Source: Fusobacteriaceae bacterium (GTDB lineage Bacteria > Fusobacteriota > Fusobacteriia > Fusobacteriales > Fusobacteriaceae). From it: DNA of 43,691 nt. This document shows positions 3,833 through 10,225 of the stretch, piece after piece. The notes under the pieces are model-generated. The model was not told the origin of the DNA. It was given only the letters and a program-made list of their open reading frames with translations, and searched no databases. The number at the start of each line of letters is the position of its first letter. Within the stretch, counting starts at the first letter, position 1. The DNA is taken from NCBI GenBank assembly GCA_031272775.1, contig JAISTB010000035.1, positions 1 through 43,691 of the forward strand, read 5' to 3'. The translations under genes were made by a program, and so were the position numbers.

Positions 3833-5623
3833 TTATACGCGATATTTCTCCATTTTCCCCGATACGCCGGGCCCCACGACGCAGCGGAGCAAGACGCATT
3901 CCGCCTCATAGCGCTCTTCCTCGACGAGGGCGTTCCGGTGCAGCCAGGCCACGCTTGCCGTATCGCTGTAGGGGATCCGGTAGCGCTCGATCCAGGTCTT
4001 TTCGGGAATCAGGGCCTCTACGGCCTCCAGAAAAGCGGGGATGCCTTCGTTAAATTTCGCGCTCAGAAGAACGCTCCGGTATCCGGGAAAAAGCTCCGTG
4101 ATTTCAGTCGTTTTTTCCGGCGTCAGCCGGTCTTTTTTGTTGAGGGCCAGAAGCGTGGGCTTGTCCGCCGCTCCCAACTCTCCGAGAACGCTTTCCACGG
4201 CCCGGATTTCGGCGGGAATGTCTTCGCTCGCCCCGTCCGCCACATGGACGATGACGTCGGCGTAAAGGACCTCGTCCAGCGTGGACTTGAAGGCCTCCAC
4301 GAGGTCGTGGGGCAGCTTCCGGATGAAGCCCACCGTATCCGTAAAGGAGAGGACTTTTCTCGAAGGGAGCTGTATGGAGCGGGTCGTGACGTCAAGAGTC
4401 GCGAAGAGCATGTCTTCGGCGAAGACCGCCTCGTTTTTCGCGCCGGCCCTGACCGGGTATTCCCTGACGAGAAGGTTGCGCAGCGTGGATTTGCCGGCGT
4501 TGGTATAGCCCACGAGGGCGATTCTCGGAATGCCCGACAGTTCCCTTCTTTCCCTGCGGACGGCCCGGGCCCTCTCCAATTCCGCCAATTCTTTCTTGAG
4601 GACGAGGATCCGGTCCCGGATCCGCCTCCTGTCCGTTTCGAGCTTTGTCTCCCCCGAACCTCCCCGGATCCCGAAGCCCGCCCGGGACATGCCCGCGCCC
4701 TGGCCCGTGAGTTTTGCCGCGCTGTATTTGAGCCGGGCCAGTTCCACCTGGATCTTTCCTTCCCGGGAGACCGCCCGTTTGGCGAAGATCTCCAGGATCA
4801 AAACCGTTCGGTCCATGACGCGGCAACCCAGGATTTCCTCAAGATTTTTGGCCTGGATTCCCGAGAGCTCGTCGTCAAAGATCACGAGGTCCGCTTTTCG
4901 TACCTGGCGGAACAGCGAGAGCTCCCTTACTTTTCCGCTTCCCAAAAACGTGACGTTGTCGGGCTTCGCCTTTTTCTGGAGAAAGGTCCCGACGGCTTCG
5001 ATGCCGCAGGCTTCGGCCAGTTCGGCCAGTTCCTTCAGGAGGGCCTCATTTTCGAGCCCCACGAGGACGGCCCGCTCTTTATCGCTTTCGGTGGCGACGC
5101 CGCTTTCCCTGACGCCCGCCGCTTCGATCTCCCCGATGATCCGAAGATAATCGACGCGCGTCGCCTGATCCGGCGAAAAGGGCCGGGTCAGCCGGTAGGA
5201 GACCCCTTCCTCCCCGAGGGCGCAAAAGCCCGCGGAAATATCCGTAATCCGCCCGTCGCCGGCGACCCCGATCGCGCACATGGCGTCAAGGCGCAATTTT
5301 ACCAGGGCTGAAATATCCACGTCGGAGAGCCTGGAATCGCCGCCCGGGTGCGTGTGGAAGACGCGGATCCCCGAGAGCTTCCCTTCGGCCGCCGTCACCG
5401 CCGGCAGGCCCGCCGTCCTGTCGTCGCCTATGGAAATTTCCGCGACGTTTCCCTTCCTGTCGATGGAAACGCTGATTTCCCGGTTGATCCGGGCGCTGAT
5501 TTCCGCCATGGGAACGAGGATTTCCTCCGAGATGAAGACGTCTTTTTCGAGTTTAATCGTGTGGATTGACTCCAGGGCGGAAAGGACTGTTTCCCTGATG
5601 CCGCCTGTATTTCCTTTGATCAT
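3833..5623 (-). CDS. hflX: GTPase HflX with N-terminal JAMM/MPN-like extension
   Basis: A 596-residue ribosome-associated GTPase, longer than E. coli HflX (about 426). The C-terminal two thirds carry the HflX N-domain (DDELSGIQAKNLEEILGCRV), then the G domain with GYTNAGKS (G1), DTVGF (G3) and NKKD (G4). The first ~180 residues are an extension with H90-T-H92-P, S100 and D103, which exactly fits the JAMM metal-site pattern HxH-x7-S-x2-D. Similar extended HflX proteins occur in clostridia, to my recollection. Whether the site binds zinc or cuts isopeptide bonds is unknown. Start at 5623 has AGAGGTGG upstream. Monocistronic, with its own promoter. Confidence 0.9.
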   Translation of the reverse strand: MIKGNTGGIRETVLSALESIHTIKLEKDVFISEEILVPMAEISARINREISVSIDRKGNVAEISIGDDRTAGLPAVTAAEGKLSGIRVFHTHPGGDSRLSDVDISALVKLRLDAMCAIGVAGDGRITDISAGFCALGEEGVSYRLTRPFSPDQATRVDYLRIIGEIEAAGVRESGVATESDKERAVLVGLENEALLKELAELAEACGIEAVGTFLQKKAKPDNVTFLGSGKVRELSLFRQVRKADLVIFDDELSGIQAKNLEEILGCRVMDRTVLILEIFAKRAVSREGKIQVELARLKYSAAKLTGQGAGMSRAGFGIRGGSGETKLETDRRRIRDRILVLKKELAELERARAVRRERRELSGIPRIALVGYTNAGKSTLRNLLVREYPVRAGAKNEAVFAEDMLFATLDVTTRSIQLPSRKVLSFTDTVGFIRKLPHDLVEAFKSTLDEVLYADVIVHVADGASEDIPAEIRAVESVLGELGAADKPTLLALNKKDRLTPEKTTEITELFPGYRSVLLSAKFNEGIPAFLEAVEALIPEKTWIERYRIPYSDTASVAWLHRNALVEEERYEAECVLLRCVVGPGVSGKMEKYRV

Positions 5624-6590: not shown

Positions 6591-7880
6591 ATGGACGTGA
6601 AGACGGAAAATCCAACGACAACAACTCAAAACAATATAGACGCGCTGCTGGAAGAGCTCTACGCCTATTCCATGCACGGGATCAAGCTGGGCCTTGAAAA
6701 CATCCGCATCCTATGCCGGATGTTGGGCAATCCCCAGAGGCGCTACAAGGTCATCCACATCGCCGGCACAAACGGCAAGGGATCCGTGACCGCGACGATC
6801 GACAATGTCCTCCGAAAGGCGGGCTGCCGGGTCGGACGCTACATTTCCCCCCACATCCTGCGTTTCAACGAAAGAATCGCCGTGGACGGGGAATATATCA
6901 CGGACGAAGAGATCGCCCGATATTACGGGCGGGTTCGGGAAGCCATCGCCATATCCGACGTGAAACCCACGTTTTTCGAAGTCACGACGGCCATGATGTT
7001 TCTCTGGTTCGCCGACAAAGGCGTCGAGTACGCGGTTGTGGAGACCGGCATGGGCGGGCGCTTCGACGCGACGAACATCTGCGACGACCTCATCTGCGTC
7101 ATCACCAACGTGACGCTGGAGCATACGGAATTTCTGGGAAAAACGGTCCGCAAGATCTCCCGGGAAAAGGCCGGAATCATCAAACATTGCCGCGACGTCA
7201 TCGTCGGCGATTCCAAGCCCACATTCCTCGGGCAGATCACAAAGGCCATGCCCAAGGGCGCCTGGCCCGTCAACGTCCTCGCAAAGTACAAGGGCGCGAG
7301 GTTTACCAGCGATTACGACAACTTTACGATAACGGTCCATGTGGACGGCAAATCCTACGTCTACAGCTTATTCGGGGACTATCAGTTCAAGAATTTCCTC
7401 TGCGCCTACGAGGCCCTCAAAAGGCTTCGGGTATCGGAGGAGGCCATGATTGAGGGCTTTGCCACGACGGTCTGGGAATGCCGCTTCGAACGCTGGTCAA
7501 AGGATCCCCTGATCATTCTCGACGGGGCCCACAACGCCGACGGCATGGCGGAACTGGCCAAAATTATCCGCAAGGGCTTCGCGCGAAAGGACGTCGTCGT
7601 CATCACTTCGATCCTCAAAGACAAGAAAATCGAAGACATGGGCGTATCCCTCGACAGCATGGCGGATACCGTGATCTTTACGGCCATCACCCACAATCCC
7701 CGGGGACTTCGGGGGGAAGAGGTCTTGGCCCGGATAAGTTCCGCGGAGGCCGAGCACCTTGTGGAAAACGATCTCGGCGAGGCGGCGCGGCTGGCGCGGG
7801 AAATGAACAAAAAACTGACCCTTGTCTGCGGATCCTTCTATCTCCTCAGCGAGTGGAAGGAAAAATTTACGAATCAGTGA
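6591..7880 (+). CDS. folC: Bifunctional folylpolyglutamate/dihydrofolate synthase
   Basis: A 429-residue Mur-ligase-superfamily enzyme that adds glutamate to folates (and usually makes dihydrofolate from dihydropteroate) with ATP. Diagnostic motifs are the P-loop HIAGTNGKGS near residue 60, the following YISPHILRFNERI and the ETGMGGRFDATN stretch, with DGAHNADG in the C-terminal domain. The ribosome site is weak (GGGTGATTCC), compatible with coupling to mtnN 27 bases upstream. Length is normal for the family. Confidence 0.93.
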   Translation: MDVKTENPTTTTQNNIDALLEELYAYSMHGIKLGLENIRILCRMLGNPQRRYKVIHIAGTNGKGSVTATIDNVLRKAGCRVGRYISPHILRFNERIAVDGEYITDEEIARYYGRVREAIAISDVKPTFFEVTTAMMFLWFADKGVEYAVVETGMGGRFDATNICDDLICVITNVTLEHTEFLGKTVRKISREKAGIIKHCRDVIVGDSKPTFLGQITKAMPKGAWPVNVLAKYKGARFTSDYDNFTITVHVDGKSYVYSLFGDYQFKNFLCAYEALKRLRVSEEAMIEGFATTVWECRFERWSKDPLIILDGAHNADGMAELAKIIRKGFARKDVVVITSILKDKKIEDMGVSLDSMADTVIFTAITHNPRGLRGEEVLARISSAEAEHLVENDLGEAARLAREMNKKLTLVCGSFYLLSEWKEKFTNQ

Positions 7881-7971
7881 ATCAACGACCCAACAGCTCA
7901 ACTTATTCACAACGCAAAGCTATAAACGTATCCGGGAAAGATGCGTATCATTGAAACAAAGGATTTTTATC

Positions 7972-8289
7972 ATGGACAAGCACGGAAATCGGGCTCAAAA
8001 GCAGACGAAAAAAATACCGGATCCCTTCCGCACGGCGGTAAAGGTTTTGCTGCTCACGCTATTTTTGGTCGCGGAGACTTTCCTCGTCCGGAGCGTGCTG
8101 GCGGAAAGAACGGAAACGGCCCTTCGCAAAAAAGAATTTACGGACCGGGTCGAAGCGGGTTTTCGTATGCGCGACGGGTCCTTTTACCGGAATACCGAAT
8201 ATGTCAAGCAATACCGGGCGCGAACGGCCCCGGCGGCCGTGGTGGTTTCCCACACGTCCGACTCCGCAAAGGGTGATCTGATTGAGTAA
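7972..8289 (+). CDS. Small single-pass membrane protein, function unknown
   Basis: A 105-residue protein that I do not recognise. A basic N-terminus (residues 1-22) is followed by one transmembrane helix (about 24-41, VKVLLLTLFLVAETFLV) and a charged, probably outside, tail. Size and topology recall FtsL/DivIC-like proteins but no coiled-coil is evident, so this is only a comparison. The start at 7972 has AAAGGA eight to ten bases upstream; the same frame is open further left but overlaps folC. It overlaps the next gene by eight bases, so the two are probably translationally coupled. Confidence 0.6.
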   Translation: MDKHGNRAQKQTKKIPDPFRTAVKVLLLTLFLVAETFLVRSVLAERTETALRKKEFTDRVEAGFRMRDGSFYRNTEYVKQYRARTAPAAVVVSHTSDSAKGDLIE

Positions 8290-10225
8290 CGCCTCAAACC
8301 CCACCATCGGCGATCTGATTGCGGCCCTCTCCCTCGAGGTCCTGAATCCGGGCAATCCCGGCCGGGAGATCGAGGGGCCCAATATCTACCAGATCGGCTA
8401 TGAGCTGACGGGTTTTTTTAATTACAGCAAGGCCGAGCTGGAGCAGTCCATCCAGATCTGCGGCCGCAAGGAACTCATGTATATCAAGACTTTGCCCCGG
8501 GACAAAATCGATTCCCTGCTGGCAAAGTATTTTTCATTTCATTTTCCGGCCCTGATCATCACCTGGGACGACCCGGAAATCGAGGCCGTCATGGTGAAAA
8601 AGGCCGCGGCCCAGGACGTGACGCTCCTGAAGAGTAAATTGGACACGCCGGTCACGATCCGGATGCTGAAGGTCTTTTTGCAGAAGCGCTTCGTCGATGA
8701 GATGATCCTGCAGGGGCACATTTTCCTTGAAATCTACGGCATCGGCGTTTTGATCACGGGCTATGAGGACGCGAAAATCGGCGTGACCATAGAGCTTTTG
8801 GATCGGGGGCACCGGATGATAACCGACGACAACGTCGTCGTCAGAAGGCTCGCCGAAAATTACCTCGAGGGCTGCAATCGCCTCGACAAGAGTCAGGAAG
8901 ACAGCCATTTCTTTCTGGAAAACAAAAAAGACGGCACGAAGATCGATATCACGACCCAGTACGGCATCCAGTCCACAAGGGCCAGAAAGAAAATCGACCT
9001 CCTGATCGTGCTGGAGGAATGGCACGAGAGTGAGTTTTACGACAGATTGGGCCTCGACGAGTATTATACGGAGCTTCTGGGGGAAAGGGTGCCCAAGATC
9101 GTCCTTCCGGTCAGGAAAGGGCGCAATCTGGCGGTCATTCTCGAAGCGGCGGCCATGAATAGCAGGCTCAAAAAAATCGGGGAAAATTCCGCCGAAATCT
9201 TCGTGGCGGAGACGAAAAAGATCATCGAAGAAAACAAGCGGCATCAGGGGGATCAGGCTATGGAGAAAAAAGCCATCGGGATCGCGGATCTCAAAAATGA
9301 ATTCGGGCTCAAAGTATTGGCGGGAGAGGAATATCTCGCGAAGACCACGGTGTCCACAGTGTCCATTCACCGGCCGGCCCTGGCCCTTTCGGGCTATTTT
9401 GATCTCTTTGAGGATCCGGAAAATATCTGCATCCAGGTCCTTTCCCGGGACGAATTCCGCTACCTCTCGTCGATCCCCGAAGACGTCAGGGAAGCCAATA
9501 TGAGAAAGTATCTGAGCTATCCCTTTCCGATGATCGTCACGACCATCGATACGGATATCCCCCAATGGTTTTACGACATGCTGAAGGAAACGCGGCTCGT
9601 GCTCTGCCGGAGCCCCTACCGCAAGGTTTCCCAGATCATCGCCAATTTCAACGGCTATCTGGAGACGGCCTTCAACCCTACGATTTCCACCCACGGGGTC
9701 TTTCTGGAGCTCTACGGCTTCGGCGTATTGATCACGGGAAAGAGTCAGATCGGAAAGAGCGAAACGGCGCTGGAGCTCATCCACCGGGGGCACCGGCTCG
9801 TGGCCGACGATTTTGTGAAATTTTCCAAAGATACCGGCGGGGCCGTCGTCGGAAGGGCGGCAAGGCTGCCTTATTTTATGGAAGTGCGCGGCTTGGGCAT
9901 CATCGACATCAAGGCCCTCTACGGCCTCGGGGCCGTCCGGCTCAACAAAAGGCTCGACTTCGTGATCGAGATGCGGGAACAGAAGACGGAAGACTACTTG
10001 ACTTCGCTGCATTACGAGAGCGGGACCTTTGAGATCCTCGGGAAAAGCATCCCCAAGATCGTCCTCTACATGTCCTCGGGCAGAAACGCCGCGGCCATGG
10101 TGGAGATCGCGGTCATGAACCGCATGGCCCGGGCCTTGGGCCATGATCCCGACAAGCTCTACCGGGAAGGGCTCAAAAAACTCACCGAAGAAGAAAGAAA
10201 ACTCATAGAGGAGAATCCGAGATAG
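8282..10225 (+). CDS. hprK: Tandem HPr kinase/phosphorylase with degenerate N-terminal copy
   Basis: A 647-residue protein made of two HPrK/P units; normal HPrK/P is about 310-320 residues. HPrK/P phosphorylates HPr on serine and reverses it, controlling sugar uptake and catabolite repression. The C-terminal unit (about 327-647) is complete: H471 in THGVFLE, the P-loop G486-KSQIG-KS493, RGHRLVADD (D509/D510) and VRGLGIIDIKALYGLGAVR. In the N-terminal unit (about 1-326) the matching loop reads TGYEDAKIGV (159-168), so the GKS is lost, and the histidine is displaced (QGHIFLE); ITDD is kept. It is therefore likely a non-catalytic partner. Start is TTG at 8282 with AAAGGGTGAT upstream. An internal ribosome site could yield the C-terminal unit alone. 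Confidence 0.88.
   Translation: MSNASNPTIGDLIAALSLEVLNPGNPGREIEGPNIYQIGYELTGFFNYSKAELEQSIQICGRKELMYIKTLPRDKIDSLLAKYFSFHFPALIITWDDPEIEAVMVKKAAAQDVTLLKSKLDTPVTIRMLKVFLQKRFVDEMILQGHIFLEIYGIGVLITGYEDAKIGVTIELLDRGHRMITDDNVVVRRLAENYLEGCNRLDKSQEDSHFFLENKKDGTKIDITTQYGIQSTRARKKIDLLIVLEEWHESEFYDRLGLDEYYTELLGERVPKIVLPVRKGRNLAVILEAAAMNSRLKKIGENSAEIFVAETKKIIEENKRHQGDQAMEKKAIGIADLKNEFGLKVLAGEEYLAKTTVSTVSIHRPALALSGYFDLFEDPENICIQVLSRDEFRYLSSIPEDVREANMRKYLSYPFPMIVTTIDTDIPQWFYDMLKETRLVLCRSPYRKVSQIIANFNGYLETAFNPTISTHGVFLELYGFGVLITGKSQIGKSETALELIHRGHRLVADDFVKFSKDTGGAVVGRAARLPYFMEVRGLGIIDIKALYGLGAVRLNKRLDFVIEMREQKTEDYLTSLHYESGTFEILGKSIPKIVLYMSSGRNAAAMVEIAVMNRMARALGHDPDKLYREGLKKLTEEERKLIEENPR
9247..9262 (+). promoter_or_regulatory. 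Possible internal ribosome site and start within the double hprK
   Basis: AGGGGGA (9246-9252) lies seven bases before an in-frame ATG (9260-9262, Met327). Initiation here would give a 321-residue protein equal to the catalytically intact HPrK/P unit, close to the family's usual length. Confidence 0.45.

Follow-up and report, generated by a model that had tools for sequence, protein, structure and literature searches.

The stretch of DNA analyzed here (43,691 nt, contig JAISTB010000035.1 of a Fusobacteriaceae bacterium, forward strand; the window, to whose full length all coordinates refer) carries a gene for a double HPr kinase/phosphorylase (HPrK/P), in which two copies of the enzyme share one reading frame. 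Across the phylum Fusobacteriota, the two halves of this protein are reciprocally, not one-sidedly, degenerate, in 59 of 59 distinct proteins. An earlier note on this DNA, which described a dead N-terminal and an intact C-terminal copy, overlooked that the C-terminal half has lost its own R245 loop (L. casei numbering). The best explanation is probably a divided composite active site, in which the N-terminal copy (N-copy) completes the C-terminal copy (C-copy), together with an internal start that gives a free C-copy. The gene and its two parts are:

8282-10225, forward strand: gene of the double HPrK/P (647 aa), whose TTG start overlaps the end of the preceding open reading frame (ORF); single match in its own genome
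8282-9256, forward strand: N-copy, residues 1-325, PF02603 and PF07475, phosphotransfer centre lost
9260-10225, forward strand: C-copy, residues 327-647, PF02603 and PF07475, catalytic centre intact, R245 loop lost

The ORF reads from its TTG start through 647 codons with zero internal stops and is the only double HPrK/P gene (n = 1) in its genome, a draft of 41 contigs. At window 8281-8289, this start and the stop of the upstream ORF (7822-8289) overlap, so that the two might be coupled in translation. That two HPrK/P units lie in one frame, as had been noted, is borne out by both halves. Searched alone against Pfam, the N-half matches PF02603 (5e-20) and PF07475 (6.5e-38), so that it does align with HPrK/P by profile search, and the C-half matches the same two families (2e-24 and 5e-51). 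Both align nearly end to end with solved HPrK/Ps, best with 1ko7 from S. xylosus (7e-42 for the N-half, 5e-49 for the C-half). Against TIGR00679, the NCBIfam model of HPr kinase/phosphorylase with a curated cut-off of 240 bits, the whole protein scores 483 bits, the C-half 271.8 and the N-half 215.9, which is below the cut-off. An AlphaFold2 (AF2) model of the full-length protein, built on the 59-sequence alignment, reaches a mean predicted local distance difference test (pLDDT) of 83.5 and a predicted template modeling score (pTM) of 0.66, and it superposes on 1ko7 with a template modeling (TM) score of 0.85 by target length.

The reciprocal pattern is seen when the 59 distinct N-halves and 59 C-halves are aligned with four solved enzymes and residues are counted in L. 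casei numbering. The elements concerned are:

8759-8782, forward strand: P-loop relict of the N-copy, GYEDAKIG (160-167), which falls one residue short of the canonical length
9014-9052, forward strand: R245 loop of the N-copy, EEWHESEFYDRLG (245-257), conserved; R255 corresponds to L. casei R245, 59/59
9107-9124, forward strand: K3 loop of the N-copy, PVRKGR (276-281); P276 corresponds to P266, 59/59
9188-9247, forward strand: C-terminal helix of the N-copy (303-322); F307 (F297) and I315 (I305), 59/59
9692-9694, forward strand: catalytic H471 (H140) of the C-copy, 59/59
9737-9760, forward strand: P-loop GKSQIGKS (486-493) of the C-copy, intact
9806-9811, forward strand: catalytic D509-D510 (D178-D179) of the C-copy, 59/59
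9881-9898, forward strand: EVRGLG (534-539) of the C-copy, the E204/R206 signature; E and R 59/59
9968-10012, forward strand: R245 loop of the C-copy, degenerated (about 563-577), low model confidence at 571-576
10067-10087, forward strand: K3 loop of the C-copy, altered to YMSSGRN (596-602), with Y instead of P266 in 51/59

The C-half retains H140, S157, G160, K161, S162, D178, D179, E204 and R206 without exception (59/59 each), and the P-loop and H471 had been assigned correctly to this unit. The N-half never has a histidine at position 140 (0/59), its P-loop is one residue short and D179 survives in only 8/59, which agrees with the earlier view that the first unit is catalytically dead. Conversely, R245, L246, G247, P266, R285, F297 and I305 are invariant in the N-half (59/59 each; W237, 58/59). 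The C-half has R245 in 3/59, F297 in 4/59 and P266 in none (0/59); I305 is not among its common residues, and L246 and G247 are also gone in nearly all 59 sequences. Among 48 positions identical in three canonical enzymes, the 15 that survive only in the C-half all fall within 140-210 and the four that survive only in the N-half all fall within 245-297. Thus, the residues for phosphotransfer (P-loop, His140, Asp179, Glu204/Arg206) are present in the C-copy and absent from the N-copy, the HPr-contacting R245 loop and C-terminal helix show the opposite distribution, and the full set exists only in the whole fused protein.

In the L. casei HPrK-HPr complex, each HPr contacts two adjacent subunits, one of which provides R245, T294, L301 and I305 and the other H140', S157', D179' and E204' (PMC9399212). 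With the exception of T294 and L301, the sets kept and lost by the N- and C-halves match the two sides of this site. Hence, the best reading of the sequences is an obligate pseudo-heterohexamer with composite sites. In an ordinary HPrK/P, each HPr is held between two identical neighbors, one giving the phosphotransfer centre and the other the flexible Arg245 loop and the C-terminal helix. We propose that an ancient tandem duplication and in-frame fusion took place in an ancestor of the sampled Fusobacteriota. Each copy would then have shed what the other retained, so that the phosphotransfer centre stayed with the C-copy and the Arg245 loop and helix with the N-copy. Three fused chains might then form a pseudo-hexamer with three live sites, built from a catalytic C-copy and the Arg245 side of an N-copy, and three dead ones. 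The substrate of the composite sites would be Ser46 of HPr of the SIMG type, and a free C-copy made from the internal Shine-Dalgarno sequence and start would probably shift the C:N ratio of the assembly. We infer the N-C pairing, the number of sites, and the translation and role of the free C-copy.

Since the C-half lacks the R245 side, both its catalysis and its binding of HPr should require the N-copy. This bears on the proposal of the earlier note that translation from Met327 yields a normal enzyme and that the fused form carries pseudo-subunits which tune mixed hexamers. The P-loop, His, Asp and Glu of the C-copy are intact and the internal start is conserved, which speaks for such an enzyme. 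However, R245, L246, G247, P266, F297 and I305 are missing from the C-half in nearly all 59 relatives, its C-terminal helix has been lost in several lineages, and a reduced gene described below (L078) has the R245 part in cis and no internal start. We rejected a normal free enzyme from Met327 because its R245 side is lost, and give the proposal as a whole little chance of being right. For the same reason, the free C-copy, if made, is best seen as a partner that alters the C:N ratio and not as a complete enzyme.

A second alternative keeps the N-copy as a structural or allosteric pseudo-subunit only, with R245 and the helix maintained for the fold or for HPr binding at its own dead site. Both copies retain G270, R271, E278 and other fold residues, and PDRP offers a precedent for a proposed regulatory N-domain that shares the fold of the catalytic domain (PMC9138534). 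What this alternative leaves unexplained is that the C-copy has lost exactly the same elements in every lineage and that L078 shed the core of the N-copy yet retained its R245 loop and helix. We therefore consider it improbable. The pseudo-subunit of the earlier note is right insofar as the N-copy is catalytically dead; it is more than a pseudo-subunit, since the complementary half of the HPr site between two subunits is retained in it without exception. The C-halves of L041 and L074-L077, from genus g21 of family f4 (probably Leptotrichiaceae) and from genome G097, have no C-terminal helix of their own, a loss that is expected if this helix served only the dead site of the N-half.

L078 (612-1421) is a 269-codon HPrK relative from a 1.2-Mb draft genome of family f4 (G087), and it is followed 3' by a DHH-phosphoesterase gene, as is the double gene in the window. 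Its residues 1-127 match PF07475 at profile positions 98-169 only and carry the R245 loop NWNKEEHFDRLG, the K3 loop IPIKKGRD and a helix with F108, and its residues 128-269 match the same profile best at positions 7-118 (HSVHGV, GKSGVGKSE, ADD, MEVRGLG). Both PF02603 domains and the dead P-loop core of the first copy are absent. Retained are R64, P77, F108 and I116, which correspond to R245, P266, F297 and I305, as well as H132, S149, K153, D171, E196 and R198, which correspond to H140, S157, K161, D179, E204 and R206. AF2 predicts one compact unit (pLDDT 83.8, pTM 0.84) whose best solved matches are the L. casei HPrK/P structures. No internal start is found in the reduced L078 gene. This lineage has held on to what a composite site is predicted to need and shed much of the rest. 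As the C-terminal part of the domain precedes the N-terminal part, L078 resembles an intermediate of circular permutation by duplication.

Next, we turn to the internal start of the double gene, which consists of two elements:

9246-9252, forward strand: internal Shine-Dalgarno sequence AGGGGGA, conserved in relatives
9260-9262, forward strand: internal in-frame start ATG (Met327), 7 nt 3' of AGGGGGA

The reported spacing of seven bases is thus confirmed. Of all Shine-Dalgarno-like sites preceding the 41 internal in-frame ATG, GTG and TTG codons, AGGGGGA is the strongest (-9.4 kcal/mol), and the Shine-Dalgarno sequence of the gene's own TTG start is weaker (-4.5 kcal/mol). Nearly all 59 relatives have, close to the junction, a start codon preceded at working distance by a Shine-Dalgarno sequence, and in 53/59 the site scores -5 kcal/mol or lower, with a penalty of 1 kcal on non-ATG starts. 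The median strength is -7.3 for internal sites versus -8.3 for the genes' own starts, and most sequences have no second 12-codon window in the ORF that is as good as the internal site. The site recurs in 18 genera, so that it is indeed kept in relatives, and permutation of linker codons with one sequence per genus gives a combined p = 7e-15, for genera that are not phylogenetically independent. It seems that the second copy is also made separately from this conserved start, as a predicted product. None of the papers listed in our literature search was found to give ribosome profiling of Fusobacterium.

The internal start might instead be a by-product of a purine-rich Lys/Arg/Gly/Glu linker with a relict Met, giving no important free product. 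This alternative touches only the internal start and does not conflict with a composite site. It draws on the resampling of synonymous codons, which is not significant for most internal starts with ATG (median p 0.36), and on the gene L017, whose internal site is weak, next to L078, which has none. However, the linker residues vary by genus (QGDQAM, KRGLVV, IGDNKM, KKGDEM) while the Shine-Dalgarno sequence and start persist, and the same resampling is significant for most GTG/TTG internal starts (p mostly 0.002-0.03), in addition to the permutation result. We regard a by-product as possible but unlikely. The internal site is conserved, in part perhaps by selection as a ribosome site and in part perhaps via the amino acids.

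Several of these points weigh against a divided site accompanied by a free C-copy, namely the null result for ATG starts, the shared ancestry of the permuted genera, and the cases of L078 and L017, which indicate that a free C-copy is not essential in every lineage. The same holds for T294 and L301, donor-side contacts in L. casei that are lost from the N-copy (mostly A/S and S/T, respectively), and for the K3 loop of the C-copy itself, which is altered (P266 to Y, K/R268 to S). According to the literature, the K3 loop is next to the P-loop within one monomer and is important for dephosphorylation (PMC9399212). It may therefore be that the phosphorylase reaction has changed and is not just complemented. 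Furthermore, the full-length AF2 model has a pTM of only 0.66, and the reach of the R245 loop of the N-copy to the P-loop of the C-copy is a presumed one. Finally, many of the 98 Fusobacteriota genomes in our phylum survey are draft assemblies.

In this survey, HPrK is present in 69/98 genomes, and the matches are doubles, the exceptions being a single reduced gene and a few draft copies that are broken or truncated; an ordinary single HPrK was not seen among the 98. HPrK is missing from most of the related family f4. The nearest named relative of the window protein, from a Fusobacteriaceae bacterium, is 81% identical and was the sole close match in a contig scan with this one protein. A search for the same fusion in related genomes, as suggested earlier, recovered a double gene of ~640 residues in all 36 other members of the family searched, from 14 genera. 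In the tree, the N-halves form one clade (support 100/99) and the C-halves another (99/97), so that one duplication predates the divergence of the sampled lineages; a recent duplication was rejected on these grounds. Nonsynonymous divergence (dN) is far below synonymous divergence (dS) in both halves in six close pairs, which indicates purifying selection on both. The double gene is conserved and under selection. An assembly or annotation artefact, or a decaying pseudogene, could be suspected from a draft genome of 41 contigs, but the same intact frame is found in 59 distinct proteins from 18 genera, several of them from one-contig genomes. Together with the purifying selection, this led us to reject both, and we give them practically no weight.

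The genome itself encodes two HPr proteins, one of the SIMG type with Ser46 (L072, NGRSIMGLMLL) and one with KSLMH (L073). Using a DNA pattern for the motif in the 98 genomes, whose lineages are not independent, we detect HPr of the SIMG type with Ser46 in 67/69 HPrK-positive and 0/29 HPrK-negative genomes. The two HPrK-positive exceptions are G084, a 76%-complete draft, and G097, the most distant HPrK-bearing lineage. This co-occurrence supports HPr-Ser46 as the target. In the HPrK-negative genome G040, a SIMG-like HPr (L117) has Asn and not Ser at position 46 (VDAKNVFGIMTL), a change that looks like decay of the phosphorylation site once the kinase was gone. CcpA is found above the curated cut-off of TIGR01481 in none of the 98 genomes (0/98) and in both control genomes. 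Hence, the idea that the double enzyme tunes catabolite control is doubtful as far as CcpA is concerned, and the data suggest that Ser46-HPr signaling in Fusobacteriota works without a recognizable CcpA.

Elsewhere in the window, an HflX-type GTPase of 596 aa is encoded at 3833-5623 (reverse strand). Its N-terminal stretch of ~190 residues has no Pfam match and contains HTHPGGDSRLSDVD, reminiscent of a JAMM/JAB metalloprotease motif.

HPrK/P is a textbook homohexameric kinase/phosphorylase. As any mutation affects all six of its identical sites, their communication is difficult to study. Here, donor and acceptor sides of one site are naturally separated into different halves, so that each can be mutated alone. 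The protein is a clear case of subfunctionalization within a single chain, of which both a full and a reduced form exist today. The broadest version of the case, a kinase/phosphorylase of a whole phylum with an irreversibly divided inter-subunit site, an internal start that sets the ratio of copies and one lineage stripped to a 269-residue permutation intermediate, might as well be wrong as right in our judgment.

Each half is homologous over its full length to the HPrK/Ps of L. casei, S. xylosus and B. subtilis; the C-copy carries all the phosphotransfer residues, and an HPr with Ser46 is present. The known enzymes are homohexamers of ~310-residue chains, whereas here two fused copies divide the composite site. 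In the F1-ATPase, homologous catalytic and non-catalytic subunits (beta and alpha) alternate, and the non-catalytic one gives an arginine to the catalytic site. The likeness is the non-catalytic arginine donor, but the F1-ATPase belongs to an unrelated family and its subunits come from separate genes. The tandem fusion as such is not new: passages of an earlier genome survey list Fusobacterium nucleatum, with the same architecture of two HPrK domains in tandem, as the sole exception among 222 genomes (Comas et al., 2008, PMC2405797). The passages covered concern the fusion only and do not mention reciprocal loss, an internal start or a reduced form. Our literature search found no description of a composite site divided reciprocally between the copies, of the conserved internal start or of the reduced form, and all three appear undescribed. 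PDRP of Zea mays, likewise a bifunctional kinase/phosphorylase resembling HPrK/P, joins a catalytic C-domain to an N-domain that has the same fold and is proposed to be regulatory (PMC9138534). It represents another family with another substrate, however, and a reciprocal division of a composite site is not described for it. According to the parts of the Cas11 literature covered (PMC11899642, PMC10212523), an internal in-frame start there lets one gene give a long protein and its C-terminal part for the same complex; expression of the second product is shown for Cas11 and predicted for the double HPrK/P.
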